From contig OY727095.1 of the NCBI GenBank assembly GCA_963402885.1, positions 17,117,001-17,181,000 of the forward strand: a DNA stretch of 64,000 bases. Direction: 5' to 3'. Each line of letters starts with the position of its first letter. Position 1 is the first letter of the stretch. Position numbers and translations under genes: made by a program. The DNA comes from Antedon bifida (taxonomy: Eukaryota > Echinodermata > Crinoidea > Comatulida > Antedonidae). Of the stretch, positions 2,941 to 43,181 are shown piece by piece. The notes below the pieces were generated by a model, which was given only the letters and a program-made list of their open reading frames with translations, was not told where the DNA came from and searched no databases.

Positions 2941-3440
2941 TCATTTTTTCAACAACTTATTAACCTCATCTATTTTGTCTTCGCTCAGCAACCCTCGAGG
3001 AACAAAATCCAATATCAGACTCCAGCTGTCTGCATACTTCTTAAGGACAGGGAAGTTGTGTCTTCCATCAAGAGCTTTGATAGTGGAATCCTTAAGATTT
3101 TTTCCTAGATTAACAATCTTCATTGTGTGTGCAGGAAATGATACTACCTCACGTTTCTTGATGTCTTTGAAAGCAGGAAGCTTTTCTGTGATAGTTGACT
3201 CGAAGCCAAATTGTTCAGTTACTTTTATTGTGTCATACAGGACAGAAAGATCTGTTTGACTCAATCGCCCATTCGCAGATAAAAAAGTTAACAAGTCAAT
3301 TGTACTGGTAACTTTTTTCAACTCTTCAATGTCGTCTACTATTCCTATGAATAGAACTTGTAGCCTGTTAAGGAGTCCACGTTCATCAAACCATTGTGCA
3401 AAGTCTGCAATCAAGTGTTTAAAATCATCCTCTGAGAAAT
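2941..3440 (-). CDS. Module B terminal exon: DED-like death-fold region with stop
   Basis: Begins after the acceptor 'ccatatag' and ends in TGA at 2941-2943. It encodes about 165 residues starting (D)FSEDDFKHLIADF. Hydrophobic spacing such as GLLNRLQVLF, IDLLTFLSANGRLS and DLSVLYDTIKV suits a six-helix death-fold, closest by eye to a death effector domain. A second helical stretch (LKKYADSWSLILDF..RGLL) may be part of the same fold or a second one. It is a clear paralogue of the exon at 9321-9806, but this copy ends in a stop where the other has a splice donor. The codon at 3412-3414 is TTG, not a true start, so this is an internal reading frame. The exact death-fold subtype is uncertain. Confidence 0.75.
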
Positions 3441-6400
3441 CTATATGGTTGAAGAAAAGTTTTCAATATTATCATAATTGTTAAAATCATAATCAATGTT
3501 TGAATATGATTATGAATATGAATTATTAAAACACCATAATAATTTTCTAGTAATAAAATAAAATTGATAACAAAAATGATGATGCTACATAAATCAATCA
3601 ATAATAATTCAATCAATCAATAATTTTTATTTCTCAAATAAAAACAAAAAACAGTTAACATTTTCTAGAAATAATAGATAATAAATGAGAAAAAGGGGTA
3701 CCCCACTGGAAGCTTAAGCTTTAAAATGTGGGGTCCAGGCAGCATATTTAAAATAAGAAAATATGTAATGTCCAAAAGATGTACATACAAGGTAGTTTAT
3801 TTGAAAATGTGATCACAAATATTGTTGATCATAGGTGTCATCAAGTGATTACATGAGACCTATGGTAGAAAATTGTTGTGATCAAATTTTCAAATAAACT
3901 GTGGAAAATCAACTACCTTTCAACTGTACTTTTTTAAAATAATGTAGAAAAATTAGCTACTACAGTAAACAAATACTCACTCACATTATTTTTGTTATCT
4001 TATGTTAATAATTAGTATTATTCTTTTTATTATATAATAATATAATCCCAGAAATTCATCATTTAAACATCAATTTCTTTGTCAGTATCATATCATCATG
4101 ACTATAATATATGATTATATTGTTTAAAGGTTTTCATAGAGTGCAAATAAACACTAGTAAAGTCAGGGTAGGGGTATATACCATGTGTTTCCATAAAGGA
4201 AGTAAAGTTGTAAGGTTGAGAAACAGTTTCATATTATAAACTTTATCTACTAGTAACTTACCTTCTCTTGGCTGAGATTGGTGACTGGATGATGTGCCTT
4301 CATTTTGGTCCTCATCACTACTGCCTAAAAAGGATCAAAATGAGATGTATATTTTCAAATTAGGAAAATATTTATAGTACACAATACCTTTTTACAGTTG
4401 TCTGTGCTGTTGAATATGTTGACAGTGAGTTCTTTATGAAGAAATGAGTACATTTACTTATGCCCATATTCTTAAACCGGACTTTAGTTGTAGTTCGAGC
4501 TAAAATGACGTCATTTTAATTCATATACATAACTTCGACTAAATCAGGCCAACCTTGACTAGACGGATATTGATCGATTTTTTTAGTCCTCGAGGGGGGC
4601 AGGCTAAATCGCCGACTAAATGGTTTTCAAACGAGGTTTATAAAAAATGTAACAGTTATTGCCAAGATATTGAGGAATGAAATAATATCTATTTTTATAT
4701 TAGCTAAATTCGATATCCATTGGTATATGTTATAATAATGCAAATAATGTTTATTCAAAGACCCATTCCCTACGTTTTTTAGATCTAATTTAAGGTCACA
4801 TACTACATTAATGTAAAAATAAATACTATATGGTCATATTGAGATAACTTTTTTCGTCTTTAAATGGTTAAAATGTGAAAAATAACGTGATTCTAATAAT
4901 TTTACCGGTCCGCTATAAATCCCAACATGCATTGTGTGCGGATTGATATATTTGTTTTCTTCTGTAGTTCACCCACTTTTCGACCGATCATGAGGCCAAA
5001 ACAAATTAAAATAGAAGAACTTTTCAGCGAAAATACTGGGTTTCCCCAAATTTGTATCAACGGAGTCTGTCAAAAACTGAAAGATAATTAATGCAGCAAC
5101 TATATAACGTCAGGTTAGGCCTATAGCTCGCGCACGATGTTCGTACGTTACTGATGTTTACCAGCTAGGTCTACAAAACTAAGCCTAACTAGGCTAGGCC
5201 AAAAAGACGGCCAACGAGAGGACATTCACCGCGAGCATTGTTTCTCTCTTTTTATCATAATTTACTATAAAATTTAGGACAAGGAATGACCTGGTTTAAT
5301 GTTTTTATACATATAAGTAATATACTGTATATGCATTATTTTTACAAAACGTCACAAATTGTAGGGAATGGGTCTTTAAAACCGTATACAAATTACATTC
5401 TTTTCTTCGCGGCAAGTCCGACTTGAACTACGTCATGTCATAGCAACAATGGAAATGCGTAAATTTACCACACAATGGAATGTTTAGGGGGCCTAGCGCT
5501 TTCTGGTCACGCTATGAAGTATGTGGTTCGTCGCGATCATCATCACTTTGTTGGAGGCCTAGAGAATATGAAAGTTACCGTACCGCCATGGTTCCTACAC
5601 ATATTTTGAAGATTTTGTTTGTTGTTAATCAAAAGTACTTCACTGTTAAATTAATACTGGTCTTGTTCTAATAATTAACGTTTAAAATTATGTTTCATGT
5701 ATATAATAACTCAAACCAGGACTTTTTCAAGTTGAACTTCGAACAAACTAAAGTTTGGTTTAAGAATATGGGCGTTAATATCGACTTTACTCCATTATAA
5801 CCAAACATAACATACCTTGATTTGAACTTTCTGTTTCAACAACACCTGCAACAAATAAAATATACAATAATTCATTCAATGGATGCTATACAAATTCCAG
5901 ATTTTGTATGGTAGGATGAACTGTTATCATCAAGGCAACAATAGAGAGGTTTCGCAATCTTACGAATACGATAACGAAAACGGATACGTCACGCACACGT
6001 ATTCGTTTTCGTAAGCCAGTAAAAATCTGTTTCGCATGGCAACGAAATATTGAGGGCGTCGTCCAAAATATGACTGGTAAATTTGAGCGCTTGGCTGCCT
6101 AGGCCTAGCGTAACATCAAAGCGAGTGAGGACTTTAAAAACTGCTATTTATCAAAATTGACCTGGCATTTTAGTAAATTACTTTAGTAAATTACTTTCAA
6201 TAAATCTATAATTATATTATAATCATGAATCATTCCTGATTCAAATGCAAAATGTGCAAAATAGATCAAAAACTATACTCGTTTTGTAGTTACGAATATG
6301 ACTGGTGATATTTGTCAACACGAATACGCTTTACGAATATGAAATGGGGATCAGCTCAAAAGTTTCACAAATGTGTGACGTAACCGTTTTTGTTATCGTA

Positions 6401-9400
6401 TTCGTAAGGTTGCGAAACCTCCCTAATGTACTTTATAAACTATTGTGGTTTTTTTTTTGTTTCATCATAAAAGTAGACATGAATTGTTAATTAAATTATA
6501 TTACTGTTAGCATTTTAAATACTTACAATTCACTTCCACTGGATCAATATCATTTGACTCTTGTGAAAGTGATACTTTTACTTTTAGGACCTTTACTGAT
6601 GGATTACCTCTTCGTAAAAGAAATGTTTTTAAAGGTCTTGTATACCATAGGCATTCAGCCTTGACAGTCTAGAATAAAAAAGTCATACTAAAAAAAAAAG
6701 GCTATACACTACAACTATGCATCTTCCAAAATGCAATAATCAAGAAGCAAAGTAGTATCATGGCATAGTTCACTCAATTAGATAGTAATAGAGATTTGTG
6801 TTATTCTATTTATCTAGTTCTGATCTTTACAATGCCAAACTATTAAAAATACTGTGATATTGCGCCTGTCATTTTTATAATACATATATAACGAACAAAT
6901 ATTACTTACTTCTTCTTCCTTCTGAACTTCCCATTTCTGTTCTGTTACAGTAATTTTCATGTCCTTATACATGGAAAGTATATCTACAGGTGCTATTAAA
7001 GGCTGCTCACCAATTTCTTTGTGCGCTTCTTTTATCATCTGAAATACATATATATTTAATATGTTATTTGTGTACATAGAAAAATAATGCACTTTAACAG
7101 AAAATATAAAATGCCAGAAAATCCGTAGCAGGTAAACCATAAAGTTACAACAATCTAGCCATGGTGTGACTCCACGAAAAGTAAAAGCAACCTTCCCCTT
7201 TCAGAAGAAATTATGACAAATCAACTTATTATTACACCTGTATAATTTCAGAAATTTAATGTAAGTAAAATAATAGAACTATAGTACATAATTAAACTAT
7301 AATTTTTAATTAATTATAGTAATTACCTTTTCATCTGACGGCTTACAAAGTCTTGTTAGAAGTTGATATTCATAATTTCCAAGCATCTTTCCAAAAACTC
7401 TTAATACCATATTTTTCTTACCACAAAAGAGGTTTATTAGGTAACCCTTTAGTACATACCAACAGAAATGATTTAAACTTATACAACATCGACCATTGTT
7501 TAAAGTAAACTGTATGTCCTTTTCATCACTTTTCAATGCTATTTGTTTCCATTCATTTTGAATGCGATCTTTAACAAGTAGAGTGAATTCCCAATTCTCT
7601 TCACTTACAGCATCGTGTGGAAATGACAGTAAACAGGGCTTGTTGAAAGTGGTGCCTTCTGGTCCACATTTAACAATAGGTGATATTATTGATTCATGAA
7701 GATGAGATACAGGCATGTCTGTTTCCTCAAAACAATGTTCTAGAGATATTTTAACTGTTTTTCCTTCTTTTATTGATCCAGGTTGTATCTCCAACTTTAT
7801 GTCTTCATCCTTAAGGTGAAGAGTTCCACCAGTAGAATCAACAATTAACTCTATTTGATGATCTGCGAATGAAAATATCAGATATTACTTTTATGGTGTT
7901 TTTCATATCATAATCTTTATCTACTAGTAAGTTGGTGACTCAATGATGTGTCTTCATTTTGGTCCTCATCACCACTGCCTAAAAATGAACAAAATAAGAT
8001 GCCCGTTTTTCAAATTAGAAACATTTTTATAGTACATAATGCTTTTTTACAAAATGTGGAATGATGTAGACAGTGAGTTCTTCATGAAGAAATTAGTGCA
8101 TTACTTAATATCCACCTAATCTACATCATTAGCATAGTAAATATAACATACTTTGCCGGAACTTACCATAAAACTTTTCACATTGGCCGGAATATAACCT
8201 TTATTGTATTAATTAAATTCTAAATATTGTACTCTGTTTATGTTAAGCAGTGTTGGACCTGGTTGGAGCTTGGATGGGAGACCATCTAGGAATGTCAGTG
8301 CTGTATATATGAAGCTGGGGTTCCATCAGGCATTTGAAATCAACACAGGGGCTGACCCTTATGGCAGCAGCTACATCTAGTATCTGCCTCAGACGTATTG
8401 GCTCATGCGATTCCTCTGGTCAAGGTAAAAACGTACTTAATCTACATCATTACCATAATTAATATTATAACATACCTAGATTTGGTCTTGATGTTTCCAC
8501 ATTGCCTATAACAAATAAAACATATAATCATTATTTCAATAAAAAAAGAAACCAGATCAACCCTATTAAGGGGACACTTTCTCATGAAACAAGGGGAAAT
8601 ATTATATGTTTTAACACTACAGCCAACACCTACTCAGGGGACACCCATATTAAGCGGACAGGGACAAAATTGATAGTGCCAAATGGTTTTATTCTATTTT
8701 TTTCCCCATTAACAAAAACAACAAAAAATACAAATAGTTATATTCATTTATATCAAAAAATGAATATCATAATAATTATGATAAAAATTATGATACTTTC
8801 TCTAGCTTGACAGTTTTCATTGGTGAAAAGTGGGCTGCTAAATTATTAATTCTTCTCAATTTTTTTAGTTCAGATTAAATATTGTTTTTGGTATATTTTT
8901 CCCCCGGCCAAGCACCTTCCCGCATCCCAAAAACCTCTATTAGGGAACAATTGTTTGGGTCGCAAAGGTGTCCCCTTAATAGGGTTTCTGTAATAATACA
9001 ATTGAATTTATTCAAAATCAAGTCAAAGAGGCCACGAAGACATTGTTGTAAAGTGGTTTTTGCCAGGTTTGTTACCTTCCATACATATGATCATCAGATG
9101 CTATCTATTAAACAATAATGAGTCTAGTCCAGTGGGTAGATAAAGAGGCCACAAAAACATAGAATTGTAAAGCTGTTTTTGCCAGTTGTTTGTTGCCTTC
9201 CATACCTACATGATCATCGGATGCTATTTATTGTAAATAATGCGTATGGTAGGTAAATAAACCAAGAGTTCAAGCAATATTACATAAAAAATTAAACATC
9301 TCAAAAGTCTATTTTCTTACCTCTTTTAAACATTAACTGATTTGATTTTGTCTTCTTCAATAACCCTCGAGTTTCAAAATCCAAAATCAAACTCCAACCG

Positions 9401-12400
9401 TCTGCATACTCCTTAAGGAAAGGGGAGTTGTATTGTTTATCAAGATCCTTTACATCCTGATGACTAAGAGATTTTGCCAGATTAAAAAGATTGACTGTGT
9501 GTAGTGATACTACCTTACACTCCTTGATATTCTTGAAAGGAGAAAGCTTTTTTGTTATAGATGACTGAAAGCCAAATTGTTCCGTTACTTTTAATGTGTC
9601 GTACAGGACAGCAAGACGTTGTCGACTCAATAGCTCAGAATTGATTAAAAGAGCTAATAGGTCGCTTGTATTGGTAACCTTTTTCAACACTTCAATGTCA
9701 TCTACTATTTCTATAAATAGAACTTGTAGCCTGTTAAGAAGTCCACGTTCATCAAACCATTTGGCAAAGTCTGCAATCAACTGTTTGAAGTCATCGTTCG
9801 AGAGAGCTAAACAGTTTAAGAGAAGCAAAGTATCAAATATTATGTAATAAATTCAATAGTATATTTATAATAATCATAGAAATAATAATTTATTATTAAA
9901 TTGACAGATTAAACAAAGATAACAGTATAAATTGTCTATATCTATAATCAGTTTTCCAAATAACAAACCACTCTTAATTTGTTATTATTGTTTTTATGAC
10001 AAGCTGCCGACAATCATTTGTTTATAATTCAATTCATGTATTTAAACAGCAAGTTTGTAAGGTCACTTCAGAATCACTGGTTATGAAGCTTTATATACTG
10101 TATCAAAGAATATATATCAGAAAAATGAGCGATTGTTACCTTCACTTGGATGACATTGAGTACTCAATGATGCTCCTTCATTTATGTCTTTACTACTGCC
10201 TATAAATAATCAAAATGAGATTTTGAATAAGGCATGGCTTATAAGTACAGGTAGCACTAAATAAGTACATTTTTGTAGTATAGAATGCCAGTTTTCTGTG
10301 CTGTGGAATAGAAAATTATAACAACGTATATAGAATAGTAGCGATTCTGATAGTACTACTGGCAACAGAATAAACAATAGTATAACATACCTTGGTTTTG
10401 TTTTGATGTATTAACAACACCTGTAACAAATAAAATAATTATTTCAATAGAAAACAAACAAAGATTCTTTTTGCGACCAAAGACATTAAATGTACATTAG
10501 GAACTATTACTGTGTTACACATCATATTCGTTACGGCATAAATGTAGATTCAATTTTTTCCCATTATCACTTTAAATACTTACAAAACACTGGAACTGGA
10601 TCAATTCTATTTGACTTCTGTGACAGTAACACTTTTGCGTTTAATACTGAATTACCTCTTATTAAAAGAAACGTCTTCATTGGTCTTGTAAGGCTGAGGT
10701 ATTCAGCAGTGACAATCTAGGAAAAACACCATACTCATATAAAAATATTGGAGTGGAGTTGTAGTTTGTTCTAGGTTCTAGGTGTAACTCCTATCAGATG
10801 TCACTTTATGTTTGTATTTTAAACAAGACTGCCACATTTGAAAAAGATCCTTGAAAATTTGCCTAAATAAATATACTGTATAAAGCAATACAGTGATTAT
10901 TCTGACTGACCTGACAAGCTGGAGAGTTCAAACCATAGTTGGGCTAAGCTTAGCAAATTTTTGAAAGTATGGCACCTCATACTGTAGAACTCTTTTTGAG
11001 AGTGTGCAATATTATTGTTGATGGACAATGGGGTACTCTTACTGATGAAAATAGTTATCTAGGGGAGGGTTCAGGATTTTATGGTAGCGGCTTTGATAGA
11101 GAAACCCTATAGTCACAACCATGTTGGGACTAAGAAAAAGAAAGAAACTTTTAGTTTCTTTGACCGTAGGTGATGTGGCATCTACTGTACCTATAATGCC
11201 GCAGTCCTTTCTATGGTATCCTCTTCAGTGGTGGATCTAGCAGGGGGTGTATGGGACGTACAATGTTTCTTTTATTTTTGAAAAATAAAATAGATTTTTA
11301 AAAACACACATCGTTTCGACGGTCATCAATCAGCTGTGGTTTACACATTAATTCATACTGAAATAGGACGTCAGTACACTGATAAAGCACATGGTCAGCT
11401 TGATCACATTCAACCAAGCAGGTACGTCGACATACCTTGTGTAATATCAATCTCTAGCATTACCCCGACGAAAAAAGAGCAAGTACAATAAAAACAAAAA
11501 CTAGCCTTATTAATATTGAAATATTTGGTTTAAAAAAAAAATTTCATCTAGCATTATTTTACTCTTGTTAATTTTATTTGCTATTCCGTCATTCTCATTT
11601 AAACAAATCGCCATGACAAAAGTGTTGCAGCTTGGTTTTTTCCCCAAATCACTAAAGTTGAGATTAAATAACGGTAATGATGGTCAAGTCGGACCACTAA
11701 TTTTTATTAGATTGTTTAAACCAGGCCGGATGCGATATTTCTTTTCGTACATAATTTGGGGACCACTCATGAAACGTCACAAATTAAACATGAACATTAA
11801 AAAGATCTTTCAAGTATTTAGATGGAAAAAGTTTATACATCTCTCTATAAATCTCTGATTAGGCCTATTATAGAATATATCTAAGTGCTTAGATTATAAG
11901 GTTCTAGAAAGATTTAAATTTGCTTGTTCAACAGCAATCCACTTGATTAGTATCTGATTTAAAAGGCACTGGATATGTTGATAGGCTCAAGATTCTGAAA
12001 CTACTAAATGGATTACTGAAAAAAAGGGCAGACATTATCCAAATATACAAGATAATTAACAATATAGATCCCATTGAAAGTAACAGGCTACTTTGGAAAT
12101 CAACTTTTACAAAAACAAGGTAATTCCTTAAAGTTGTCAAAGCTCACAACAAAACAGGAAATAAGGAGACACTTTTTTACATCAGTTGAGGATTGGAACT
12201 CACTTCTACATGTTGTTTGCCCTTCTTCCATAAATAGATTAAAATCTGGGTATGCTGTTCTGATCACCATTAAAATTGTCGCCTATATACAAATGAAGAA
12301 TGATCACGAGGAACAAACAAGTGTAGTTCTCAAAGTCCTACAGCTCAAAATAAATAATTATATTCTTCACCATTTTAACCTACCACAGCTGTTATATAAG

Positions 12401-15400
12401 GTCTATAATTATAATATTATACAGTTTTACATTTTTATTCAACAAATGTTTTTACCTGTGGTTCTTTAGAGACCTCCTGGATTTTCCATTTCTGGTCTAA
12501 TATTTCAACAGCAATTTCCATGTCCTCAGACATACAGAGTATTTCTATAGACTGTCTTAACATCTGCTCACCATCTTCTTGGTGTTTTTTTTCTATCATC
12601 TGAAATATATATGTAATACTGTACAAACAACACATTTAATATATTTATTATTCTGTGTACAATGCTTCCTAATTATTCAAAGGAAAAGCAAACCAGACAA
12701 TGCAACCATGTTTACATCTTGACATTGTACAGTCTTGGTCTCGCATTTTTAATACTGTACCATTTTAAAATAAATAAAAATATTGGAAGTATTATGTCAA
12801 TTTAATTCAATGTTTGCTTTAATCTAACATGATAATCAATGAAATACAAGATCCACTCAGTAACAACAACTATCCTTTGTGACAAAGCAACTACTGTATT
12901 GTATATTTGAACAGCTATAATATAATGTAAGTAAGAATACATTATTCAAATACAGTTCAACAACAAATTATAATAATTACCTTTTCATCTGACGGCTTAA
13001 AAAGTCTTGTTTGAAGTTGATACTCATCGTTTGCAAGCATCTTTCCAAAAAATCCTAATAACATTCTTTTCTTAGCATGAACGGCATTTCTGACATGACC
13101 CTTTAGTGCATACGAACTAAAATGATTTAATGTTATACAACATAGACCTTTGTTTAAAGTAAAATGAACGTCCTTTCTATCATTTATCAATGCTATTTGT
13201 TTCCATTCATCTTGAATGTGATCTTTAACAAGTAGAGTGAATTCCCAATTTTGTTCATTTACAGCATCGTGTGGAAATGACAATGAAATGGGTTTGTTGA
13301 AGGTGGTGCCTTCTGGTCCACATTTAACAATAGGTGATATTATTGATTCATGAGGATTAAGTACAGGAAATTCTGTTTCCTCAAAACAATTTTCTAGCGA
13401 TACTTTAACTTTCTCCCCTTTAATTGCTTCAGAAGGTATCTCTAACTTGATGTCTTCATCCTTAAGATGAAGTGTTTCACCAGTAGATCCCACAATTACT
13501 TCCATAATTTGATCTGAAAAATAAAAATCTAATGTAAGATATTACTTAATGGTATTTGATATATAGCCATTGCCACAATTGTCTTCATTACACAATGCAA
13601 ATTCTTTCAACCTGTTGTATCATACACGTGTGTTTATTTATATCATGCAGAAATTATTTATATATATTATAGTTATATTTATAGCAAAGTTACATAACAA
13701 AAAAGTTTTTCATGGTTTTTTTTTTTTTATTTTGGCCAGTTTCTGTTGTGGATCAACACTACACTAGCTTATTCATAATTATATGAACAGTATAATATCT
13801 CATTCTATTGTAGATATTTACACTGTGTTTTTAAATTATGTTTAGACTTTTTACTTTCTAGACATGATGAACGTTAACAATTTATTTCACAAGATTTATA
13901 AATTGATTAAATAGAACGGATGACTCTCCACATGACTGAACTACTTTACAATGTATTTATATGCAATTATATTTATTAACAAACTAGTTTTATGTTATAA
14001 TATTTTGGAAATAACTTGAAATTGAAACAATCTTTATTCCTATTATTTCATTGCATTTTCTAAATCTGCAATCATATATATGCATATAACACACTGTAAC
14101 TCACCATTCTGTTTTTGAACAGGACTTGGTAAATCTGAAAAATTACCAAAAACAAAACAATTACATATAATTTTATATAAAAAGTCACGTCAACTTGGCA
14201 ACACTTTTATATATTCATGACACAGATCATTGGGGAGGGGGACGACAAGGGGGATTTTATCCTATTAAAGCAGGGGCGCATCTAGCGCTAAATTTGAGAG
14301 GGGTTAAGTAATTGTGGGAGGGGGACCAGTACACAAAAACAAGAATATCCCACTCATATTTGAACTGTATACATAATTGAAAATTCGAAAACATCTATTA
14401 ACATTATACACATAAAATTCAGTATAACAATCACACCCTGCAAACCGAAGATGAAGCATCACTGCTATGGCAAGCAATTTTATCAGTTACCTCCAAGTTA
14501 AACTTAAGACAAATACATTGCATTGAAGTACAATTGTATTCAACTAAGTATAATACATTTGACTTAAGTGCAATACATTTGATTTAAGTGCAGTACATTT
14601 TATTTCCACTAAAGTTGAATTGTATTTAACACTACTTGTAAAACTCAACTGCAATTGCGCATAATTGGACTTAAGTGTTATATGATTGGTTTTAGCCTAT
14701 AAAAGTTTGTCAACTTTCACTTTCACATTCAGTTTTGGTTCCCTTTTTAGTTAGTCCTAGAACAGTACCACCAAGGCAAGGCTAAATATATATTTAGTAA
14801 ATACGTGAATGTGATTGGTTGAAACTGCATCACATGACTACCGCTGCGAGGATCGTAAATCGTATATATCCTCGAGTACGATGATATTGACTGAGTAATT
14901 TTCGCGTAATTATGGTGTCTCTGTCATTGAACATATAAATTCCAGCAAATTCTTGAGTACGATGATATTGACTGTGTAATTTTCGTGTGGCAACACTCGC
15001 GTTTGGAGATAATTAAACAAAAGTCATCTACTGAGACTTGAACTCGCGATATTTTGTCCATCATCACAATACAATGGTGTGCTGAACATCCGGTGATTCA
15101 GCTCCTCGAAGAAGACGAATTATTATTTATACGGCCTACCTCATAATAATATTATTATCATTAATGTAGGCTTATTGATGGAAATTCTTCTGTTAATTTA
15201 AACAACATAGGCCTAAGTGAATATTTTATTGCCAAGGAATCATTAATTAGTAATTATCTGTATATTATTCTTCGCAAGGTAAGGTGAATGCAACACCTAA
15301 CTAGGCAGGCTTATTACAAAGGAGGCCTAGCTACACCCGACCCTGCAGTAGATATTCAACTTGTTGTTGGCTATGTAATATAACAGATATCGCCTTTTAT

Positions 15401-30400: not shown

Positions 30401-33400
30401 AACATAAACATTTTTAGTTGTTTAGTAGTTGTCGCATTTTATTTCATATTTACAATTAACTAGACCATTGTCAATAATTGTTAATTAATAACTGAATATA
30501 TAAAAAAAATTGATTTTTTTGTTCATTCAGAAAATTAAAGATTTATGTTATATGATAGGTAACTGTACACTTTAAATCAGTTATCATAAATCATATATAA
30601 CTATTTAGTTATTTTTTTATTTGGTTTGTTTTAATCAAATTTGATTTTTGTTAATGTGCTTACTTTTTTCTCTCATTAAATGGTTTACTTCAGCAGATCT
30701 ATAGAATGTTAGCCTATTACACTAGCAAATCCCTGTAGATTTACCTTATTTTGCAATGCTACTGGTGCCCCATCCTGAATGAGACACGTCACTATTTCTA
30801 AGGTAGGGTCTTCATGGCACAGATATTCATGTAATGGAGTGTTCCCATGCTGGAAAGGAATCGTAATCATGAAGTTTATAAATACTGACAACAGACATTA
30901 TGTGAAATTGTTTTTTTTTTTTGTTAATACAAACAACAACAATTACTGCTAAATAATGTGATAAAATCATAATTATCATTATCGATAAACGAAAACAAAA
31001 TATAATATATTACCATGGATCAGATCTAGTGATTGTTAGCCTATTACTTAATGTAAGTAATCATCAAAATCTAATTACTGTACAATATCAATCACAAAAT
31101 TTGAACGTTATAAAATACATATTTCATAAAAATGTACAAACAAATGTTCAGATATTAAAAATATGAGGCCAATAAGCAGTTTAATGAATTTATATATAAA
31201 TTTAGGTAATGGGAAATTTCTGTAAATTAAGTTCAACTTCTAGAATTTTTACCCAATGGTAGAGAAAGTTGGTACATACTTTCGGTACTAATTTCTAACA
31301 CCTAATGAAAACCAGTGTACTATATTGACGATCAAAACAAATTTATCATTTTCCTCGATGAAGATCATATCATATCATGAAGCCTGATACCATCCCATCA
31401 TCAAATGTACCAAGACAGGAATTTGGTGAACAATACCATATAATAAACAAAATTAAGGTAATTCTCAGGATGACAATTATTTTTGACTACATAAATTCCA
31501 TCATATCTGTATTTATTTGCCTTGTGTACAGTGCAATTTTCAGTTATTTACCAAAGTTCATGTATTCGAGAAGCATCTGTGAGCACTTACTAGTATATTA
31601 TATTTTAACGAGAAATCATTTTTCCAAAAAAGTTTAAGATAAGAGACGGAACTTTTCTTAAAAGCATTCAGTTTGAAAAGAATAATTTCATATTACATTT
31701 CTTTTTTAAATTGCATTACTCAAACAATTTAGATTTTGAAAACTAACAAAACATTGTTTACATTTCTCTTCATTTTTAAAAGATCCTAGGTTGGAAAAGG
31801 ATTTCTTTAAGGCCATTTTCATAATTAGCTGGATAGACTGACAGAAGCATTTTTTGTACGGTAATGGAGGGAGCAGGTTTTTAATTAATAATTATTTTTG
31901 TATTAAAATCAGATTCTATTAATTTTTTTAACATAAACATTTTTAAATGTTTAGTAGTTGTCCCATTTTATTTCATATTTACAATTAATTAGACCATTGT
32001 CAATAATTGTTAATTAATAACTGAATATATAACAAAAATAGATTTTTTTGTTCATTAAGAAAATTAAAGATTTATGTTATATGATAGAAACTGTACACTT
32101 TAAATCAGTTATCATAAATCATATATAACTATTTAGTTATTTTTTTATTTGGTTTGTTTTAATCAAATTTAATTTTTGTTAATGTGCTTACTTTTTTTCT
32201 CTCATTAAATGGTTTACTTCAGCAGATCTATAGAATGTTAGCTTATTACACTAGCAAATCCTTGTACATTACCTTATTTTGCCATGCTACTGGTGCCCCA
32301 TGCTGAATGAGACACGTCACGATTTCTAAGGTAGGTGCATATAGAGGACTCCTCAGATATGAATGTAATGGAGTGTCACCATCCTGGAAAGGAATCATAA
32401 TCATGATGTTTATAAATACTGACAACAGACATTATGTGAAATTGGGTTTTTTTGTTAATACAAACAACAACAATTACTGCTAAATAATGTGATAAAATCC
32501 TAATTATCATTATCGATAAATGAAAACAAAATATAATATATTACCATGGATCAGATCTAGTGATTGTTAGCCTATTACTTAATGTAAGTAATCATTAAAA
32601 TCTACTTACTGTAAAATATCAATCACAAAATTTGAACATTAAAAAAATACATATTTCATAAAATTGTACAAACAAATGTTTAGATGTTAACAATATGAGG
32701 CCAATAAGCAATTTAATGAATTTACATATAAATTTAGGTAATGGGAAATTTCAGTAAATTAAGTGCAACTTCTAGAATTTATACTCAACTAGCAATTATA
32801 CCCGCCCCAGGGCGGGTTTCAAAATTAGTTTAAATCCTTCTCAGTACATAACACCCAACGCCAGTATCTCCCTATACTCACCAACCTCCACCCCTCTTCA
32901 ATAACACCCCACACTCTTTTTTAAAAACAAATTCTTCCCACAAATTCAATTTAACTTTAGCTTTAAATTGGGAGGAGTATACATTGCTGAGGTAGTCGTT
33001 ATAATGGTTTAAGTACGTTGTAAACTGTGTAAATGAATAGGTGTCATATTGGCTAATAATTTAGATACTGTGGTCCCCCAGCCTTCTTTCTCCACTCACC
33101 ATTCCAGCCACAAACAACAAACCTTAGCTCCTCCCCTGGACAGTTCAAATATAGTAACTTTTCCTATTACATTTCCAATCATATAGGCTACTTCATTACG
33201 CCAGTATTTTCGCTGCTCCTCCTCCTCCCCAAAACACACCCCAGATACTAGGTGATGTACAAATTATTCATCACTCCCATTCCATAATCCCTCAGTGGCA
33301 GTTTTCAAAAGTAGTTTAAAACATTCCTAATACAGTTAGAATAGGCCTACATCCCCACCCCAAACTCCCAGCCCCTTCCTAGTGAATAATTAAAATACTT

Positions 33401-36400
33401 TTTCCAACCACAATTTGATAGCCTCTAATACCCCTAGCCTAAGCAAAATCCCCACTATCCCTGAACCCCAACTCCCAACTCCCCCCCCCCCCCCCCCACC
33501 CCCCCAATCAAATTCCCAGACTTTTTTGAAATGTAGTTTAAAACCTTCCCGGTACAATTGCGATCATTTTGATACCCCATATGAATGGTTACATGCAGAA
33601 ACAGAAATTTTTATAATGAACAAACATCGCAAGTGGGAAAAAGTGGGCCATTTTGGCCCCTAACTTGGATCCTAGATGGCGGATGATGTTCAAATATAGT
33701 TTAGAACATTCCCGGTACAATTCCGGTCATTTTGATACCCCATATGTAAGGTTACGTGCAGTAACAAAAATTTGTATAACAAACAAACAGACGTACAAAC
33801 TCTCTCACTTATAATAGATGGTAGAGAAAGTTGGTACATACTTTCGGTACTGATTTTTAACACCCAATCAAAGTAAGATTGTTCATTGTTCTCCTATTAA
33901 AGGCACTATGGGCGTGCCATAAATACGCTCGTTTAGTTTCAGTTTTTGTTGCTAAATTCATCGTTTTTAACATAAATTCGGACGATTTTTGCTATAAAAT
34001 TTGGGTTTTCATAATTAATTAACCATTATCTATTCTCGTTTGGTAGGTATTTGCAACATTCTGAGTCCCTTTTGTTTCCGTTTTGGTGTTTATAGGATCA
34101 TACCCTTCTCAAATTGTTTAACTTGGGTATTTCGGAACTCCACCCCGAATTCCTCTTTTACTTTCGCAAAAATGCTCTTATATATCTGTGAATCTTTTCT
34201 ATTGCCTGCCATCCTTCCCCGTACTTTCTCTTCTCCCCCACAACTGAATAACATATCTTGTGATTTCATTCATCCACATGCATGTTCACTTCTTCGTTCG
34301 ACTGTCAAAACCACGAGGAAAACACACATGGTTCGCGACGGTATCTGACCCGGGGTCACAACTGTCAATCAAATAACCGTTATTTCGTGTTGCAGCTAAG
34401 AATTGCTCAGCGATAACCGGTTAAACGGCGTTCTAACACCGATTTAAATTGGTGTTTTTAACCACTTATTTTGCGCTGCCTTTTAACCGGTTACCACAAA
34501 TTTGTCCTGTTTCTGCTGCCAAGAAAATGGAGTTAATTTATTCACACCGATTTTAATTTATTCACACCGATTTTAACCGGTTATTTTGTATGCAGCAGAA
34601 ACAGACCCTTAGACAATATTCAGTTATTTACGGAAGTTTATGTATTCGATAACCATCTGTGGGCACTTAATTACCAGTATATCAAATTTTAACTGGCAAC
34701 TTTAATAGAATCATTTTTTCCAAAAAGTCATAAGATCAGATACGGCACTGTTTGAAAAGAATAATTTCATATTAAATTTCTTTTTGAAATTGCATTGCTC
34801 AAACATTTTTACTAAACTAAACATTATTTACATTTCTCTTCCTTTTGTGCAAAATGTTTGTTTGGAAAAGGCCATATTCATACTGTGTGTGATAAGACTG
34901 ACAGAAGTATTTTATTATAAAGTAAGTAAAGGGCGGGAGCACGTTATTGAAATCAGATTCTATTTTTAACATAAACATTTTTTAATTTGTTAGTTTATTA
35001 ATAGTCAATGTAGTTGTCCCATTTTATTTCGTATTTACAATTAATTAGACCATTGTCAATCGTTATCTTTAAAGTACATACAGTAATAATGAGCAATTTA
35101 TATTTGTTTTACGGTCATAAAAATGTAAACAACATTGTAGGTTACTATTAGGAAGATTTTTCATTGAGAAAAATAAAGATTTATGTTATTTGACAGGTAA
35201 CTGTACACTTTAAATCAGTTCATAAATCAAATAAACTATTTAGTTTTTTATTTGGTTTGTTGTAATCAAGTCTTTACTTTTTCTCTCATTTTAACATTTT
35301 TCACAAAATCATGTTTTGTATGCTTCATTTAGATTCTGCTAAGCTTTGATTTATTTATATTATTATTTTTAGCCTAATGTGGTTAATCAGTGCATGCAGG
35401 TTATACCCCCATCATCAGTGTGTATTTATATTATTTTTAGCCTAATGTGGTTAATCAGTGCATGCAGGTTATACCCCCATCATCAGTGTGTATTTATATT
35501 ATTATTTTTAGCCTAATGTGGTTAATCAGTACATGCAGGTTATACCTCCATCATCAGTGTGTATTTATATTATTATTTTTAGCCTAATGTGGTTAATCAG
35601 TGCATGCAGGTTATACCGCCATCATCAGTGTGTATTTATATTATTATTTTTAGCCTAATGTGGTTAATCAGTGCATGCAGGTTATACCCCCATCATCAGT
35701 GTGTATTTATATTATTATTTTTAGCCTAATGTGGTTAATCAGTACATGCAGGTTATACCCCCATCATCAGTGTGTATTTATATTATTATTTTTAGCCTAA
35801 TGTGGTTAATCAGTGCATGCAGGTTATACCGCCATCATCAGTGTGTATTTATATTATTATTTTTAGCCTAATGTGGTTAATCAGTGCATGCAGGTTATAC
35901 CCCCATCATCAGTGTGTATTTATATTATTATTTTTAGCCTAATGTGGTTAATCAGTACATGCAGGTTATACCCCCATCATCAGTGTGTATTTATATTATT
36001 ATTTTTAGCCTAATGTGGTTAATCAGTGCATGCAGGTTATACCCCCATCATCAGTGTGTATTTATATTATTATTTTTAGCCTAATGTTGTTAATCAGTAC
36101 ATGCAGGTTATACCTCCATCATCAGTGTGATATTGCAAAATAATTGTAATTCATTATATAAAAAAATGTTATAATAACTAATAAAGAAAATTACATTCTC
36201 TATAATTTTAAACTTTAATTAAAAGAATTTCTTCTTTGATAATATTATAAAAATAATGTACATCTTGTTTTAAATACCTTATCGATAGATTTCACAAGAT
36301 CTGGTTGCGTCTTACAAATTTGTTTAATTGTTTGCAAATCATTGTTGGACAACAAAGCTTTTTCTAATTTGTTCCTGTTAAAATGTAAGAAATAATGAAT

Positions 36401-42400: not shown

Positions 42401-43026
42401 TAGGCCTAGGCCTAGTACGTAGTAAAGATAATTAGTTATTCTTCAACAGTCACACAATTCAGATTCTGCCGCTGATTGCTAGTGAACAGGGGGAGGGAGA
42501 GAAAGAGTTAGAAGAACTGAAATAAGTCGTGACGTATAATAAACATCATACAAAATAATAATATAACTAACGAATCCGTATAATATAATAATGTTGTATG
42601 TTATAAAGTAAGGTAAATGCGTTTAATATAATACAATTATATTATAATATAATGTATTTTATTCATAATATAATAGTAAATGTTCATAATATAATGCCAA
42701 AACCGAATAATATAATACAAATAGTCAATAATTTGTTACATTTTTCACATAATATATTAGAAATAGATATAATATAATGCTAAAACTAAGTAATATAATG
42801 CAAAACGTATATTTCATTACAATACAATATATAATATAATAAAAAAATGATATAATAATATAATATTTTGAATACTTCAGACAGCTGAGGCTTGCCATAC
42901 TTTAATTGTAATATTTATGATTTCATAATTTTTTAAGAAAGTTTTAAAGTATTGCTAACTATTCAAACATTTTAATCTGGTTATTTTTGTTGGATTTGAA
43001 AAAAAACAAAAAACGTACCTTTCCAT
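2941..43026 (-). CDS. ANK-(ZU5-UPA-DED-like)x2 gene, predicted 24 coding exons (overall model)
   Basis: Overall entry for the spliced gene; exons are listed separately. Order 5' to 3': 43019-43026, 36278-36374, seven ankyrin exons 32383 to 20162, 18104-18188, module A (14105-14134, 12981-13513, 12456-12599, 10584-10716, 10391-10420, 10140-10199, 9321-9806), module B (8476-8505, 7327-7862, 6910-7038, 6527-6668, 5816-5845, 4262-4324, 2941-3440). Every exon has AG/GT borders, all phases join, and the lengths sum to 3777 nt, divisible by three, ending in TGA. The protein would have about nine ankyrin repeats followed by two ZU5-UPA-DED-like modules. ZU5-UPA pairs occur in ankyrins, UNC5, PIDD1 and (as FIIND) NLRP1/CARD8. 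No signal peptide or membrane segment is evident, so a cytosolic protein is likely. A sensor or cell-death role is inferred from domains only. Alternatives: separate transcripts for the ANK-module A part and for module B, or alternative use of ankyrin exons. Confidence 0.6.
3788..3903. repeat. Small palindromic element in intron
   Basis: Arms 3794-3818 and 3876-3900 are reverse complements with one mismatch over 25 bp, and the loop contains a further short inverted pair (ataggt/acctat). It has the form of a tiny foldback or MITE inside the last intron. Confidence 0.6.
4262..4324 (-). CDS. Module B linker exon (63 nt, acidic/Ser-rich)
   Basis: Acceptor 'ttttag' before GCAGTAGTG and donor AAG|GTAAGT. 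Phase 1 at both ends; encodes (G)SSDEDQNEGTSSSHQSQPRE. A low-complexity hydrophilic linker joining the UPA part to the DED-like exon. Homologous to 10140-10199 in module A and to the broken copy at 7932-7978. Confidence 0.7.
4461..5774. mobile_element. Harbinger-like non-autonomous DNA transposon
   Basis: About 38-bp terminal inverted repeats beginning 'gcccatattcttaaacc' at the left and ending 'ggtttaagaatatgggc' at the right. The flanking trinucleotide TTA (4458-4460 and 5775-5777) fits the 3-bp target duplication of PIF/Harbinger elements. A further inner inverted pair (about 4763-4779 against 5363-5379, 'gtagggaatgggtcttt') lies inside. No transposase frame. A lone related end is seen at about 46935-46976. 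The superfamily call rests on TSD length only. Confidence 0.6.
5816..5845 (-). CDS. Module B 30-nt mini-exon
   Basis: Acceptor 'tttgttgcag', donor 'AAG|GTATGTTATG'. Exactly 30 nt, phase 1 both sides, encoding (C)VVETESSNQ. It matches the mini-exon at 10391-10420 in sequence, in size and in the donor context GTATGTTATA/G. Too short for function prediction; it belongs to the flexible linker before the DED-like region. Confidence 0.65.
5944..6423. mobile_element. Mariner-type MITE, copy 1
   Basis: Long inverted repeats of about 50 bp beginning 'gagaggtttcgcaatcttac' and ending 'gttgcgaaacctccc', flanked by TA (5942-5943 and 6424-6425). A second copy in inverted orientation lies at 57236-57737, where an empty site proves TA target duplication. 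TA duplication is typical of the Tc1/mariner superfamily. No transposase. Confidence 0.75.
6527..6668 (-). CDS. Module B UPA exon (C-terminal part)
   Basis: Acceptor 'ttctag', donor T|GTAAGTATT, 142 nt, entering in phase 0 and leaving in phase 1. It encodes 47 residues with TVKAECLWYTRPLKTFLLRR and KVKVSLSQES, which reads as the last strands of a UPA domain (W..TRPLKTFLL... V.VSLSQ). Paralogue of 10584-10716. Confidence 0.7.
6910..7038 (-). CDS. Module B UPA exon (middle part)
   Basis: Acceptor 'gtatttcag', donor GAA|GTAAGTAA, 129 nt, phase 0 both ends. Encodes 43 residues starting MIKEAHKEIGEQPL and containing MKITVTEQKWEVQ, the central UPA pattern (hydrophobic strand, then W). Paralogue of 12456-12599, five codons shorter. 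The ATG at the exon start is internal. Confidence 0.7.
7327..7862 (-). CDS. Module B ZU5 domain exon (with start of UPA)
   Basis: 536 nt between acceptor 'tttcattcgcag' and donor AAG|GTAATTACT; phase 1 in, phase 0 out. ZU5 landmarks in order: (G)GTLHLKDEDIKLEI, SIISPIVKCGPEGTTFNKP, LSFPHDAV, WEFTLLVKD, EWKQIAL, and the end GRCCISLNHFCWYVLKG. The site corresponding to the FIIND/PIDD cleavage serine is cysteine here (TGT at 7462-7464; HFC instead of HFS). The UPA domain starts after it (KNMVLRVFGKMLGNYEYQL). Roughly 178 codons, near full length for ZU5 plus the UPA start. Paralogue of 12981-13513. Confidence 0.85.
7932..7978 (-). pseudogene. Broken copy of the acidic linker exon
   Basis: Starts with an intact acceptor (tttttag before GCAGTGGTGATGAGG) and reads SGDEDQNEDTSLSHQ, like the exon at 4262-4324. 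About 20 bp are missing compared with that exon, including the end of the exon and the GTAAGT donor. It is probably skipped, with splicing from 8476 straight to the ZU5 exon at 7862; the phases allow this. Confidence 0.65.
8242..8312 (+). mobile_element. 5S rRNA-derived fragment (SINE3-like or 5S pseudogene)
   Basis: The stretch contains 'gttaagcagtgttgg', 'cctggttgg', 'cttggatgggagaccatct' and 'aggaatgtcagtgctgt', which follows the 3' half of 5S rRNA including the box A, intermediate element and box C internal promoter region, with substitutions. The 5' half of 5S is not recognisable. The following ~100 bp (caggcatttgaaatcaacac...) may be the SINE body. It lies in the intron between 8476 and 7862, antisense to the gene. 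Confidence 0.6.
8476..8505 (-). CDS. Module B first mini-exon (30 nt, bridge from module A)
   Basis: Acceptor 'tttgttatag', donor TAG|GTATGTTAT; 30 nt, phase 1 both ends, encoding (G)NVETSRPNL. It resembles the pre-DED mini-exons at 5816 and 10391 (V-E/N-T-S pattern, same donor context), yet here it precedes a ZU5 exon. In phase it joins the DED-like exon of module A (AGA G|GC) to the ZU5 exon of module B (G|AT CAT CAA). Confidence 0.6.
   Translation of the reverse strand, partial: AMWKHQDQI
8559..8986. mobile_element. TIR element with 'aaccctattaaggggacac' ends
   Basis: 428-bp element with about 22-bp terminal inverted repeats: left 'aaccctattaaggggacac', right 'gtgtccccttaatagggtt'. No coding capacity; the plus-strand frames here are fortuitous. 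Part of its body (schematically ggggacactttctcat, then gccaac..ct, then gtgccaaatggtt) recurs at 63148-63265, next to a tandem array built from a similar 'aggggacacacccct' motif. Target duplication not clear. Confidence 0.55.
9025..9245. repeat. Two-copy ~117-bp tandem repeat
   Basis: 'aaagaggccac' with a following 'tttttgccag ... ccttccatac ... gatcatc.gatgctat' occurs at about 9025 and again at 9142. Intronic; the second unit is slightly diverged. Confidence 0.65.
9321..9806 (-). CDS. Module A DED-like exon, reads on into module B
   Basis: Acceptor 'cttaaactgtttag', donor AGAG|GTAAGAAAA; 486 nt, phase 1 both ends. Encodes (A)LSNDDFKQLIADF, GLLNRLQVLFIEIVDDIEVL, TSDLLALLINSELLS and LKEYADGWSLILDF..RGLL, the same pattern as the terminal exon at 2941-3440. 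Where that copy has a stop, this one has a good donor in the matching region. If the donor were ignored the frame would stop at 9301. The donor and its phase support continuation to 8505. Death-fold assignment is by hydrophobic pattern. Confidence 0.75.
10140..10199 (-). CDS. Module A linker exon (60 nt)
   Basis: Acceptor 'atttatag', donor GAAG|GTAACAATC; phase 1 both ends; encodes (G)SSKDINEGASLSTQCHPSE. Paralogue of 4262-4324, hydrophilic linker before the DED-like exon. Confidence 0.65.
10391..10420 (-). CDS. Module A 30-nt mini-exon
   Basis: Acceptor 'tttgttacag', donor CAAG|GTATGTTATA; 30 nt, phase 1 both ends, encoding (C)VVNTSKQNQ. Paralogue of 5816-5845. Confidence 0.65.
10584..10716 (-). 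CDS. Module A UPA exon (C-terminal part)
   Basis: Acceptor 'tttttcctag', donor T|GTAAGTATT; 133 nt, phase 0 in, phase 1 out; 44 residues beginning IVTAEYLSLTRPMKTFLLIR and containing AKVLLSQKS. Same UPA end as 6527-6668 with three fewer codons. A true exon rather than a plus-strand gene: the opposite-strand frame at 10490-10720 is its shadow. Confidence 0.7.
11870..12260 (+). mobile_element. LINE reverse-transcriptase C-terminal fragment
   Basis: Plus-strand translation, with at least one frame change, gives YVDRLKILKLLNGLLKKRAD, IIQIYKIINNIDPIE and then KLSKLTTKQEIRRHFFTSVE, DWNSLL, SSINRLKSG. This is the usual tail of jockey/CR1-type non-LTR reverse transcriptases (RL..L.LL...R.R.DII..YKI ... 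FF....DWN.L....S.N..K). The fragment lies in the intron between 12456 and 10716, opposite to the gene. A possible unrelated transposon tip ('cagtggtggatctag') sits at 11226. Confidence 0.6.
12456..12599 (-). CDS. Module A UPA exon (middle part)
   Basis: Acceptor 'atatatttcag', donor CAG|GTAAAAAC; 144 nt, phase 0 both ends; 48 residues, MIEKKHQEDGEQML... with MEIAVEILDQKWKIQ. Paralogue of 6910-7038. Confidence 0.7.
12981..13513 (-). CDS. Module A ZU5 domain exon with HFS triplet (FIIND-like)
   Basis: 533 nt between acceptor 'tttatttttcag' and donor AAAAG|GTAATTATT. ZU5 landmarks: GETLHLKDEDIKLEIPSEAI, SIISPIVKCGPEGTTFNKP, ISLSFPHDAV, WEFTLLVKD, EWKQIALI, GLCCITLNHFSSYALKG. Counting from the internal Met at 13503-13505, H128-F129-S130 lie at 13116-13124. 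HFS is the autocleavage triplet of PIDD1, and SFS/FS of NLRP1/CARD8, so this copy may cleave itself between Phe and Ser. The UPA domain follows (KKRMLLGFFGKMLANDEYQL). Cleavage is inferred; the catalytic His and Glu need a structure-based alignment. Confidence 0.85.
14105..14134 (-). CDS. Module A leading mini-exon (30 nt)
   Basis: Acceptor 'ggtaatttttcag', donor AATG|GTGAGTTAC; 30 nt, phase 1 both ends; encodes (N)LPSPVQKQN. It connects the last ankyrin exon (phase 1 end at 18104) to the ZU5 exon (phase 1 start at 13513). Small, so called from splice sites and phase only. Confidence 0.55.
14135..18103 (-). other. Large intron between last ankyrin exon and module A
   Basis: No exon I can support. 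It contains matching but imperfect transposon-like tips at 14271 ('caggggcgcatctag') and 16662 ('ctagatccgcccctg' on the plus strand), without a clear target duplication; a 14.5-14.6 kb patch with the word 'taagtgcaatacattt' repeated; a hairpin at 15421-15496; a short duplicated word 'gagtacgatgatattgact' at about 14874 and 14956; and a duplicated 'tttacatttat.tgcaattaataaa' block near 16610 and 16943. A motif 'cctgacgacaatca ... cgaaacgtcgag' near 16390-16430 is like the ends of Penelope-like elements. Confidence 0.45.
15421..15496. repeat. Hairpin, ~28-bp arms
   Basis: Arm 15421-15449 and arm 15469-15496 are reverse complements with about three mismatches, both containing 'gggaatgatatt' or its complement; loop about 19 nt. 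It may be a small foldback transposon or a structured RNA. Confidence 0.6.
18104..18188 (-). CDS. Last, divergent ankyrin-repeat exon
   Basis: Acceptor 'ccattttttttaatag', donor AAAAA|GTAAGTGAAG; 85 nt, phase 0 in and phase 1 out. Encodes KRHTPVYMLEKNRWIEKQRK followed by TEILNFLK: an ankyrin repeat with TPVY in place of TPLH and the EIL..L helix kept. It is the only exon in the 14.1-20.2 kb gap that accepts phase 0 from the ankyrin array and delivers phase 1 to 14134, so it completes the reading frame. It occupies the equivalent place in a divergent copy of the array unit. Confidence 0.65.
20162..20266 (-). CDS. Ankyrin-repeat exon 7 (105 nt)
   Basis: Acceptor 'cctttccag', donor AATAAG|GTAATG. 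35 codons, phase 0 both ends: NGNTPLHEYLCYGDPTLEIV.. ending GAPVALQNK. TPLH, the LEIV..LI helix and the GA turn are the ankyrin signature. In the next exon the residues K|(K/N)G continue the repeat, so consecutive exons give uninterrupted repeats with a 35-residue period. Confidence 0.8.
22017..22121 (-). CDS. Ankyrin-repeat exon 6 (105 nt)
   Basis: Same borders and phase as the other copies. Reads SGDTPLHLYLCHEDPTLEIV then ACLIQHGAPVALQNK. The longer open frame to 22163 runs into intron on both sides; the splice sites define the exon. Confidence 0.8.
22871..23520. repeat. Triplicated ~216-bp intronic segment
   Basis: The stretch from 'gaacttttcttaaaaacatt' to 'gacagaagcatttttttt' appears three times head to tail ('attcagtttgaaaag' at about 22890, 23107 and 23323), almost identical. 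Other array units hold a single copy (for example at 29345), so this is a local, recent amplification. Confidence 0.85.
24702..24806 (-). CDS. Ankyrin-repeat exon 5 (105 nt)
   Basis: Borders TTCCAG|TCTGG and AATAAG|GTAATG, phase 0. Reads SGDTPLHLYLYHGYPTLEIV then TCLIQDGAPVALQNK. Confidence 0.8.
25800..27000. repeat. ~604-bp tandem duplication inside the ankyrin array
   Basis: The block at 25800-26403 is repeated at 26404-27000, nearly identical (compare 'taactgaaatccaattctat' at 25801 and 26405). It has no ankyrin exon and so lengthens the intron without adding a repeat. Confidence 0.8.
27165..27269 (-). CDS. Ankyrin-repeat exon 4 (105 nt)
   Basis: Borders and phase as in the other copies. 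Reads YGNTPLHLNLWLGDPTLKVV then TCLIQHGAPVALQNK. It differs most in the first helix and loop (LNLWLGD), the positions that usually face a ligand. Confidence 0.8.
27881..28054 (-). pseudogene. Two ankyrin-exon relics
   Basis: At 27881-27925 a degenerate copy keeps 'cattaccctattttgcaatg' but has lost the rest of the exon. At 28034-28054 the 3' end of an exon with its donor (cattac|cttattttgcaatgctactgg on the plus strand) is cut off and joined to intron sequence. Neither has an acceptor. They record failed or rearranged duplications between exons 3 and 4. Confidence 0.65.
28488..28592 (-). CDS. Ankyrin-repeat exon 3 (105 nt)
   Basis: Borders TTCCAG|CATGGG and AATAAG|GTAATG, phase 0. Reads HGNTPLHEYLCHGYPTLEIV then TCLIQDGALVALQNK. 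Confidence 0.8.
30745..30849 (-). CDS. Ankyrin-repeat exon 2 (105 nt)
   Basis: Acceptor as in the other copies; the donor is slightly different (AAG|GTAAATCT rather than GTAATG) but still suitable. Reads HGNTPLHEYLCHEDPTLEIV then TCLIQDGAPVALQNK. Confidence 0.78.
32273..32383 (-). CDS. Ankyrin-repeat exon 1 (111 nt)
   Basis: Acceptor TTCCAG|GATGG, donor AATAAG|GTAATG; 37 codons, two more than its neighbours. Reads DGDTPLHSYLRSPLYAPTLE then IVTCLIQHGAPVAWQNK. The junction with the preceding cap exon gives SIDK|DGDTPLH, the usual D..G.TPLH ankyrin transition, which supports splicing from 36278. Confidence 0.78.
32789..33817 (-). mobile_element. Non-autonomous Helitron
   Basis: On the minus strand it starts TCTATTATAAGTGAGAGAG and ends in a GC-rich hairpin (CCCGCCCTGGGGCGGG at 32801-32816) followed by TATAATTGCTAG. 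The 5'-TC and 3'-CTAG (CTRR) ends fit Helitrons. It sits precisely between A and T: joining the flanks gives 'actcaatggtagag', the sequence found uninterrupted in the other array units. No Rep/helicase frame. It contains a C-rich run (33480-33506) and an internal ~160-bp imperfect duplication (about 33530-33640 and 33690-33795). Confidence 0.85.
33818..35350. other. Intron between cap exon and ankyrin exon 1
   Basis: No exon supported. About 33860-34610 is unrelated to the array units and includes repeated 'taaccggtta'-type words and the word 'cagcagaaacagaccctta', suggesting another small transposon. The remainder (34620-35340) is a diverged array-unit intron. The 102-residue plus-strand frame at 34040 has no recognisable domain. 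Confidence 0.4.
35351..36130. repeat. 71-bp satellite, 11 copies, with three-unit higher order
   Basis: 'agcctaatg' occurs at 35371, 35439 and then every 71 bp to 36078. Unit variants (gtgc/gtac and ccccc/ccgcc/cctcc) follow the order gtgc-ccgcc, gtgc-ccccc, gtac-ccccc twice (copies 4-9), a 213-bp higher-order repeat. It lies in the intron just downstream of the cap exon. Confidence 0.85.
36278..36374 (-). CDS. Ankyrin N-terminal cap exon
   Basis: Acceptor 'cattttaacag', donor GATAAG|GTATTTAAA; 97 nt, phase 2 in, phase 0 out. Encodes NKLEKALLSNNDLQTIKQIC then KTQPDLVKSIDK, a typical first ankyrin half-repeat (L..AL...D...I+.I....PDLV..ID). It joins in frame to exon 43019-43026 upstream and to 32383 downstream. 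Confidence 0.7.
36468..42899. mobile_element. Giant foldback (long-TIR) element filling intron 1
   Basis: The left arm starts 'tatggcaagcctcagctg' and the right arm ends with the exact complement 'cagctgaggcttgccata'. The flanks are a perfect 7-bp duplication 'ctttaat' (36461-36467 and 42900-42906). The arms are close complements to near the centre (~39985 and ~40145), so almost all of the 6.4 kb is a palindrome. The left arm has about 0.7 kb (38400-39117) absent from the right. Each arm holds AT-rich 'tattatatta' DNA, a 'ctaggcctag'-rich patch, and the same 91-93-residue open frame (37678-37953 and 41456-41737). No transposase is recognisable. Confidence 0.85.
43019..43026 (-). CDS. Candidate first coding exon (start codon)
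   Basis: ATG GAA AG|GTACGT on the minus strand. The 2-nt overhang joins G AAC AAA of the cap exon to give MERNKLEKALL. An in-frame TGA lies 21 nt upstream, so the frame cannot start earlier in this exon. Without the foldback element the intron to 36374 would be only about 205 bp, similar to other short introns here. The call rests on a start, a donor and phase only; a different first exon is possible. Confidence 0.4.
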
Positions 43027-43181
43027 TTCAAAAATACAGTGTGTTCATTTAACAATTATTATTACTGATAGCTTCTAGTGTAAAAGTAAGCCTACACATT
43101 CTGTTCTGAAAATATGAAAGGTAAAACATAATTAATCAGACATAAACCTTTGCATTAAAGGCTACGACAATTAAATTGCAC

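Follow-up and report, generated by a model that had tools for sequence, protein, structure and literature searches.

The minus strand of the window (the whole 64,000-nt stretch of DNA analysed) carries the exons of seven near-identical ankyrin repeats followed by those of two copies of a block containing a ZU5 domain. All 24 exons proposed by the first-pass annotation were rebuilt base by base with AG/GT borders and consistent phases, giving a coding model of 3777 nt, divisible by three (1258 aa plus a stop), that terminates at 2941 (Table 1). The encoded protein is predicted to consist of an N-cap, the seven repeats, a diverged C-cap and two tandem linker-ZU5-UPA-like-linker-DED blocks. That this is one animal gene for a receptor, presumably cytosolic, that works like PIDD1 and NLRP1/CARD8, with an ankyrin sensor, a doubled module and DED output, is an evenly balanced proposition.

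Gene model, domains and surroundings

The ankyrin repeats were recognised by Pfam in seven stretches (121.8 bits against a gathering score of 21.1, E 3e-36), and ZU5 (PF00791) exceeded its gathering score of 21 twice (75.8 and 69.2 bits; E 2.5e-40). DED (PF01335) reached 19.3 and 14.2 bits in the two modules, below the gathering score of 35.9; when trimmed pieces were searched, that of module 2 scored 16.6 bits and that of module 1 had no DED match, and a PDB profile search with the DED exons returned 0 matches. The AlphaFold model of the module 2 DED exon, with a modest pLDDT of 51.7 overall and 59-75 over the first 70 residues, matched DED proteins in all 14 of the entries listed. The predicted fold thus suggests that the death fold at the module ends is likely a DED. 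In the tail after the DED, modelled at low confidence, Pfam found neither TRADD-N nor another domain, and a putative second half-DED suspected there by eye had no Pfam match. For the UPA-like regions, Pfam and PDB profile searches gave 0 matches and hhalign against the UNC5B UPA was negative, while a global alignment gave z scores of 2.5 and 3.2.

The exons, ankyrin repeats and ZU5 domains of the first-pass annotation were recovered, its DED was favoured by fold comparison though not by the Pfam threshold, and its UPA rests on a weak alignment signal. Its 8-nt exon 1, which contains the proposed ATG and so has no acceptor, was rejected as an unsupported guess. When donors were judged loosely, the 10 kb preceding exon 2 held 24 pieces running from an ATG to a donor in fitting phase, the proposed exon being one of them, and a large palindrome separates it from exon 2.

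Table 1. Features of the model and its vestigial exon, in order along the minus strand
Feature	Position	Strand	Basis
Proposed first exon (ATGGAAAG); not supported	43019..43026	-	borders; 24 rival pieces within 10 kb
Exon 2, likely N-terminal ankyrin cap	36278..36374	-	leads in phase into repeat 1; cap judged by eye
Ankyrin repeat exon 1, longer by 6 nt (37 aa)	32273..32383	-	rebuilding, Pfam, copy comparison
Ankyrin repeat exon 2	30745..30849	-	rebuilding, Pfam, copy comparison
Ankyrin repeat exon 3	28488..28592	-	rebuilding, Pfam, copy comparison
Ankyrin repeat exon 4	27165..27269	-	rebuilding, Pfam, copy comparison
Ankyrin repeat exon 5	24702..24806	-	rebuilding, Pfam, copy comparison
Ankyrin repeat exon 6	22017..22121	-	rebuilding, Pfam, copy comparison
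Ankyrin repeat exon 7	20162..20266	-	rebuilding, Pfam, copy comparison
Array end: C-terminal cap or diverged final repeat	18104..18188	-	rebuilding; cap role by eye
30-nt linker exon (phase 1-1) ahead of module 1	14105..14134	-	rebuilding; no blastn counterpart
Module 1 ZU5 exon, NHF-S at scissile position	12981..13513	-	Pfam, PDB alignment, module blastn
Module 1 UPA-like exon a	12456..12599	-	rebuilding, module blastn; UPA alignment weak
Module 1 UPA-like exon b	10584..10716	-	rebuilding, module blastn; UPA alignment weak
Module 1 linker exon a	10391..10420	-	rebuilding, module blastn
Module 1 linker exon b	10140..10199	-	rebuilding, module blastn
Module 1 DED-like exon; in-frame stop 9301-9303 if donor unused	9321..9806	-	rebuilding, Pfam below threshold, module blastn
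Linker exon ahead of module 2	8476..8505	-	rebuilding, module blastn
Vestigial linker exon b copy, donorless, outside model	7916..7978	-	low end set by comparison
Module 2 ZU5 exon, NHF-C at scissile position	7327..7862	-	Pfam, PDB alignment, module blastn
Module 2 UPA-like exon a	6910..7038	-	rebuilding, module blastn; UPA alignment weak
Module 2 UPA-like exon b	6527..6668	-	rebuilding, module blastn; UPA alignment weak
Module 2 linker exon a	5816..5845	-	rebuilding, module blastn
Module 2 linker exon b	4262..4324	-	rebuilding, module blastn
Module 2 DED-like exon, terminal stop codon	2941..3440	-	Pfam below threshold, AlphaFold model, module blastn

No additional copy of the gene was found in the 64-kb window by tblastn at E 0.01, and Rfam (gathering threshold) and tRNA searches of the whole window gave 0 matches each; a search of viral contigs for relatives of the ZU5 exons gave 54 pattern matches, of which 0 were confirmed. 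Between proposed exons 1 and 2 lies a near-perfect palindrome of 6.4 kb (36462-42905), either a true inverted duplication or an assembly artefact; of the nine arm pairs in the region, eight show 97-100% complementarity and the ninth 92%. Exon 2 is adjoined by a 71-bp tandem repeat (35287-36296), and a 31-bp minisatellite at 43056-44400 has at least 21 copies in the region searched, which ended at 44000, and the repeat runs on in the sequence to 44400. A minus-strand ORF at 50864-54640 resembles a Ty3/gypsy-type polyprotein (family assigned by eye) and at 1258 aa equals the receptor model in length by coincidence; further ORFs of at least 62 aa are present at 43.0-50.8 and 54.7-64 kb.

Variation in the ankyrin array

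Each of the seven repeats is encoded by a single phase 0-0 exon, six of them of 105 nt and one of 111 nt. When the six copies of equal length were compared in all 15 pairings, differences were counted at 133 of 1575 exon bases, against 114 of 4423 in the 300 bases of intron lying upstream; by columns, 19/105 are variable in the exon and 16/287 in the upstream intron (Fisher P 0.0004). This contrast is weakened by the downstream introns, in which 19 of 133 comparable columns vary, nearly as in the exons. When the introns were pooled, the difference from the exons had P 0.006 for the six copies and 6e-5 with all seven repeats. Nonsynonymous differences in the ankyrin exons (pN 0.095) exceeded both synonymous ones (pS 0.050) and the pooled intron rate (0.038). 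The excess over pS, seen in 87% of bootstraps, does not reach significance; that over the intron rate was seen in 99.5%.

The amino-acid differences are concentrated at the offsets corresponding to DARPin positions 2, 3, 5, 13 and 14 (39/98, above expectation, P 0.003), in a test that is not blind, as the variable sites were already known when the offsets were worked out from the residue numbering in an excerpt of PMC3602593. Position 2 is itself invariant in the array. Comparing unweighted variable codons with the DARPin positions gave P 0.003 for a chosen set of eight main codons and 0.05 for all 13, the latter scored as overlap with seven DARPin positions.

Blocks shared among the ankyrin introns combine into a mosaic, as would be expected if the exon variation were a by-product of unequal crossing-over and of gene conversion homogenising the introns, rather than of selection for binding. 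This explanation, which we consider plausible though short of even, also fits the variable near downstream intron and an excess of pN over pS that is no more than suggestive. Against it, even the most divergent upstream introns among the six copies (14/294) differ less than exon pairs do on average (133/1575), the changes gather at binding-face offsets, and pN lies above the pooled intron rate. Separately, the upstream intron of the last, diverged array exon (18104..18188) belongs to repeat family D3 (72%), and an ankyrin intron holds copies spaced 217 bp apart at 23004-23559 (families D6, D12 and D13).

The doubled module and the proposed join between its copies

Protein identity between the two downstream blocks is 65%. 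At the DNA level, blastn of region 14400-9300 against region 9299-2800, a comparison with the ankyrin exons outside it, gave eight islands of similarity, all of them located at predicted exons or at a single vestigial exon, with an overhang into intron of no more than 45 bases, and no match beyond these eight between the two regions at E 1e-3. Together with a dN/dS between the modules of 0.47-0.65 in the four larger exons, the island positions support those exons independently of the splice consensus, and the agreement found for the model goes beyond chance. The linker exon 14134-14105 has no blastn island in the module 2 region, and the linker ahead of module 2 resembles the later linkers, not this one. 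The duplicated block begins and ends in phase 1 and can therefore be repeated without a frameshift.

At the end of module 1, the exon closes on the donor GAG|GTAAGA, the second strongest of the 22 donors of the gene scored with a weight matrix; an equally good site occurs once per 8000 bases of the window. It fits the phase (phase 1) of the linker exon that follows (8505-8476). Unspliced, the frame reaches a stop at 9303-9301 that starts 18 bases behind the exon end. Since this stop lies so close behind a strong donor, the region may contain two genes, or isoforms. In a two-gene arrangement, an ankyrin-ZU5-UPA-DED gene would end at that stop, and module 2 would be a sensorless, partial tandem copy, either with a start of its own or decayed, so that each gene has a one-module architecture. 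The stop itself favours this, as do the donorless vestigial linker exon between DED-1 and ZU5-2 and the shifted end of the module 1 exon, which by eye shows an apparent 4-base deletion relative to module 2. The strength and phase of the donor speak against it, as do the AG/GT borders and phase retained by the linker ahead of ZU5-2, the inter-module similarity, which ends before the stop codon with no common 3' end visible, and the dN/dS below 1. We consider two genes rather unlikely, and a single gene, perhaps with an additional short isoform, is likely the better description. The vestigial exon, whose donor is lost, lies in the intron between DED-1 and ZU5-2, and its surroundings (8107-7901) are 75% identical to those of module 2 linker exon b (4324-4262).

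The putative scissile position, related proteins and a proposed mechanism

Module 1 carries NHF-S and module 2 NHF-C at the position where CARD8 and PIDD cut themselves. The F aligns to residue 137 of chain 3g5b, which corresponds to UNC5b Leu-677 by arithmetic (offset 540, anchored by the Cys-663/Cys-670 pair). D'Osualdo and others, in the part of PMC3210808 considered here, equate Leu-677 with the position of Phe-296, after which CARD8 is cut, and give the cut motifs as HF/S in PIDD and SF/S in NLRP1 and CARD8. The PIDD1 motif is hence present in module 1 only, module 2 having HF-C, and SF/S of the FIIND type is absent from both modules. By analogy, the Cys of module 2 may act as a nucleophile, as a passage of PMC13062082 on acyl-shift cleavages names cysteine alongside serine and threonine.

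The His required 27 residues before the Ser (H942/S969 in rat NLRP1, H270/S297 in CARD8) is replaced by Gln in both modules at the same, ungapped spacing, which counts against self-cleavage; the position of CARD8 Glu-285 and UNC5b Glu-666 is Asn in both. The ZU5 domains of UNC5 and ankyrins are not known to cleave themselves, so a ZU5 domain alone is no indicator of cutting. An AlphaFold model of the ZU5 domain was too poor for a structure search (pLDDT 42).

The closest solved ZU5 is that of UNC5B, the best PDB match, followed by ZO-1 and weakly by ankyrin-2/3 (E 0.08-0.44). UNC5B, a receptor with a transmembrane part (ZU5-UPA-DD), differs from the modules in having Q-L-G at the cut position and a death domain. 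Classical ankyrins have 24 repeats, ZU5-ZU5-UPA and a DD; they too place ankyrin repeats ahead of ZU5, but here the repeats are fewer (seven Ank stretches), the ZU5 domains are not adjacent, the end is DED-like and the block is doubled. A non-cleaving scaffold of the classical-ankyrin or UNC5 type, in which ZU5-UPA and the death fold have structural or autoinhibitory roles, would accord with this ranking of PDB matches, with the unpreserved NLRP1/CARD8 His spacing and with the missing Ser of module 2, but we judge it unlikely given H-F followed by S or C where UNC5B has Q-L-G, the PIDD motif of module 1, the DED-like death fold and, unlike in ankyrins, one ZU5 per UPA-like region.

The FIIND of NLRP1 and CARD8 (ZU5-UPA-CARD) shares with the modules the order of ZU5, UPA-like region, linker and death fold, the F at the cut and one ZU5 per death fold; it differs in its SF/S motif, its His 27 residues before the Ser, its CARD in place of a DED, its single module and the lack of an ankyrin array. 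PIDD1 (LRR-ZU5-ZU5-UPA-DD) likewise has a repeat sensor, two ZU5 domains, HF/S at the cut (PMC3210808, in part) and a death-fold end. Here, however, the ankyrin array replaces the LRR and a DED-like exon separates the ZU5 domains. Each ZU5 comes with a UPA-like and a DED-like part, where PIDD1 follows its ZU5 pair with a single UPA and a single DD, and module 2 has HF-C as its motif. Peptidase_S68, listed for PIDD1 in a table excerpt of PMC9573974, had no Pfam match in the receptor model.

The description of the protein as undescribed has to be narrowed. A 2021 survey, in the passages considered (PMC8195603), reports animal proteins that pair DED/TRADD-N with FIIND or UPA-ZU5, and others with ankyrins, as lineage-specific expansions for which an immune role is proposed. 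These share the combination of DED with ZU5-UPA; the present model has no Pfam match to TRADD-N, and a doubled module is not described in those passages. An excerpt of PMC3482391 reports ZU5 expansions in sponges as well, and the table in PMC9573974 includes XP_035662392.1, apparently an amphioxus protein in which a repeat stretch, seemingly ankyrin, precedes a single ZU5 and, unlike here, a kinase end. Among the literature matches listed, ankyrin repeats with a doubled ZU5-DED architecture were not found, nor was the doubled block with mixed HF-S and HF-C recognised.

The first-pass suggestion of an immune or cell-death receptor is reasonable, and gains strength from two findings: HF-S/HF-C in the ZU5 domains and the variation on the binding face of the ankyrin array. 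In such a one-gene receptor, a ligand would engage the ankyrin array; module 1, probably self-cut between F and S of NHF-S with its halves remaining bound, would be kept as a cleaved, closed ZU5/UPA-like pair, as the motif suggests. Once ligand had bound, or the N-terminal part had been destroyed or displaced, one or more C-terminal UPA-like/DED pieces would be set free to cluster, following the example of NLRP1, CARD8 and PIDD, and the DED could recruit DED-containing adaptors or caspases. With C in place of S, module 2 may cut itself at a lower rate or stay whole; a second, slower release from it could give two release steps, as in PIDD. A bolder version, which we regard as improbable, is a two-stage self-cleaving immune receptor with a diversifying ankyrin recognition surface and Ser/Cys switches of differing speed or trigger; that the surface arose by tandem duplication of one-exon repeats, with changes mainly at the binding positions randomised in DARPins, is a similarly doubtful part of it.

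If correct, the receptor reading would mean that the self-cleaving ZU5 switch known from PIDD1 and from inflammasome sensors has been coupled to an ankyrin sensor and DED output, and doubled. The two modules would offer a natural Ser/Cys pair for probing the role of the nucleophile, and the one-exon repeats, with a variable binding face beside near-identical upstream introns, make an evolvable germline recognition array a hypothesis open to direct testing.
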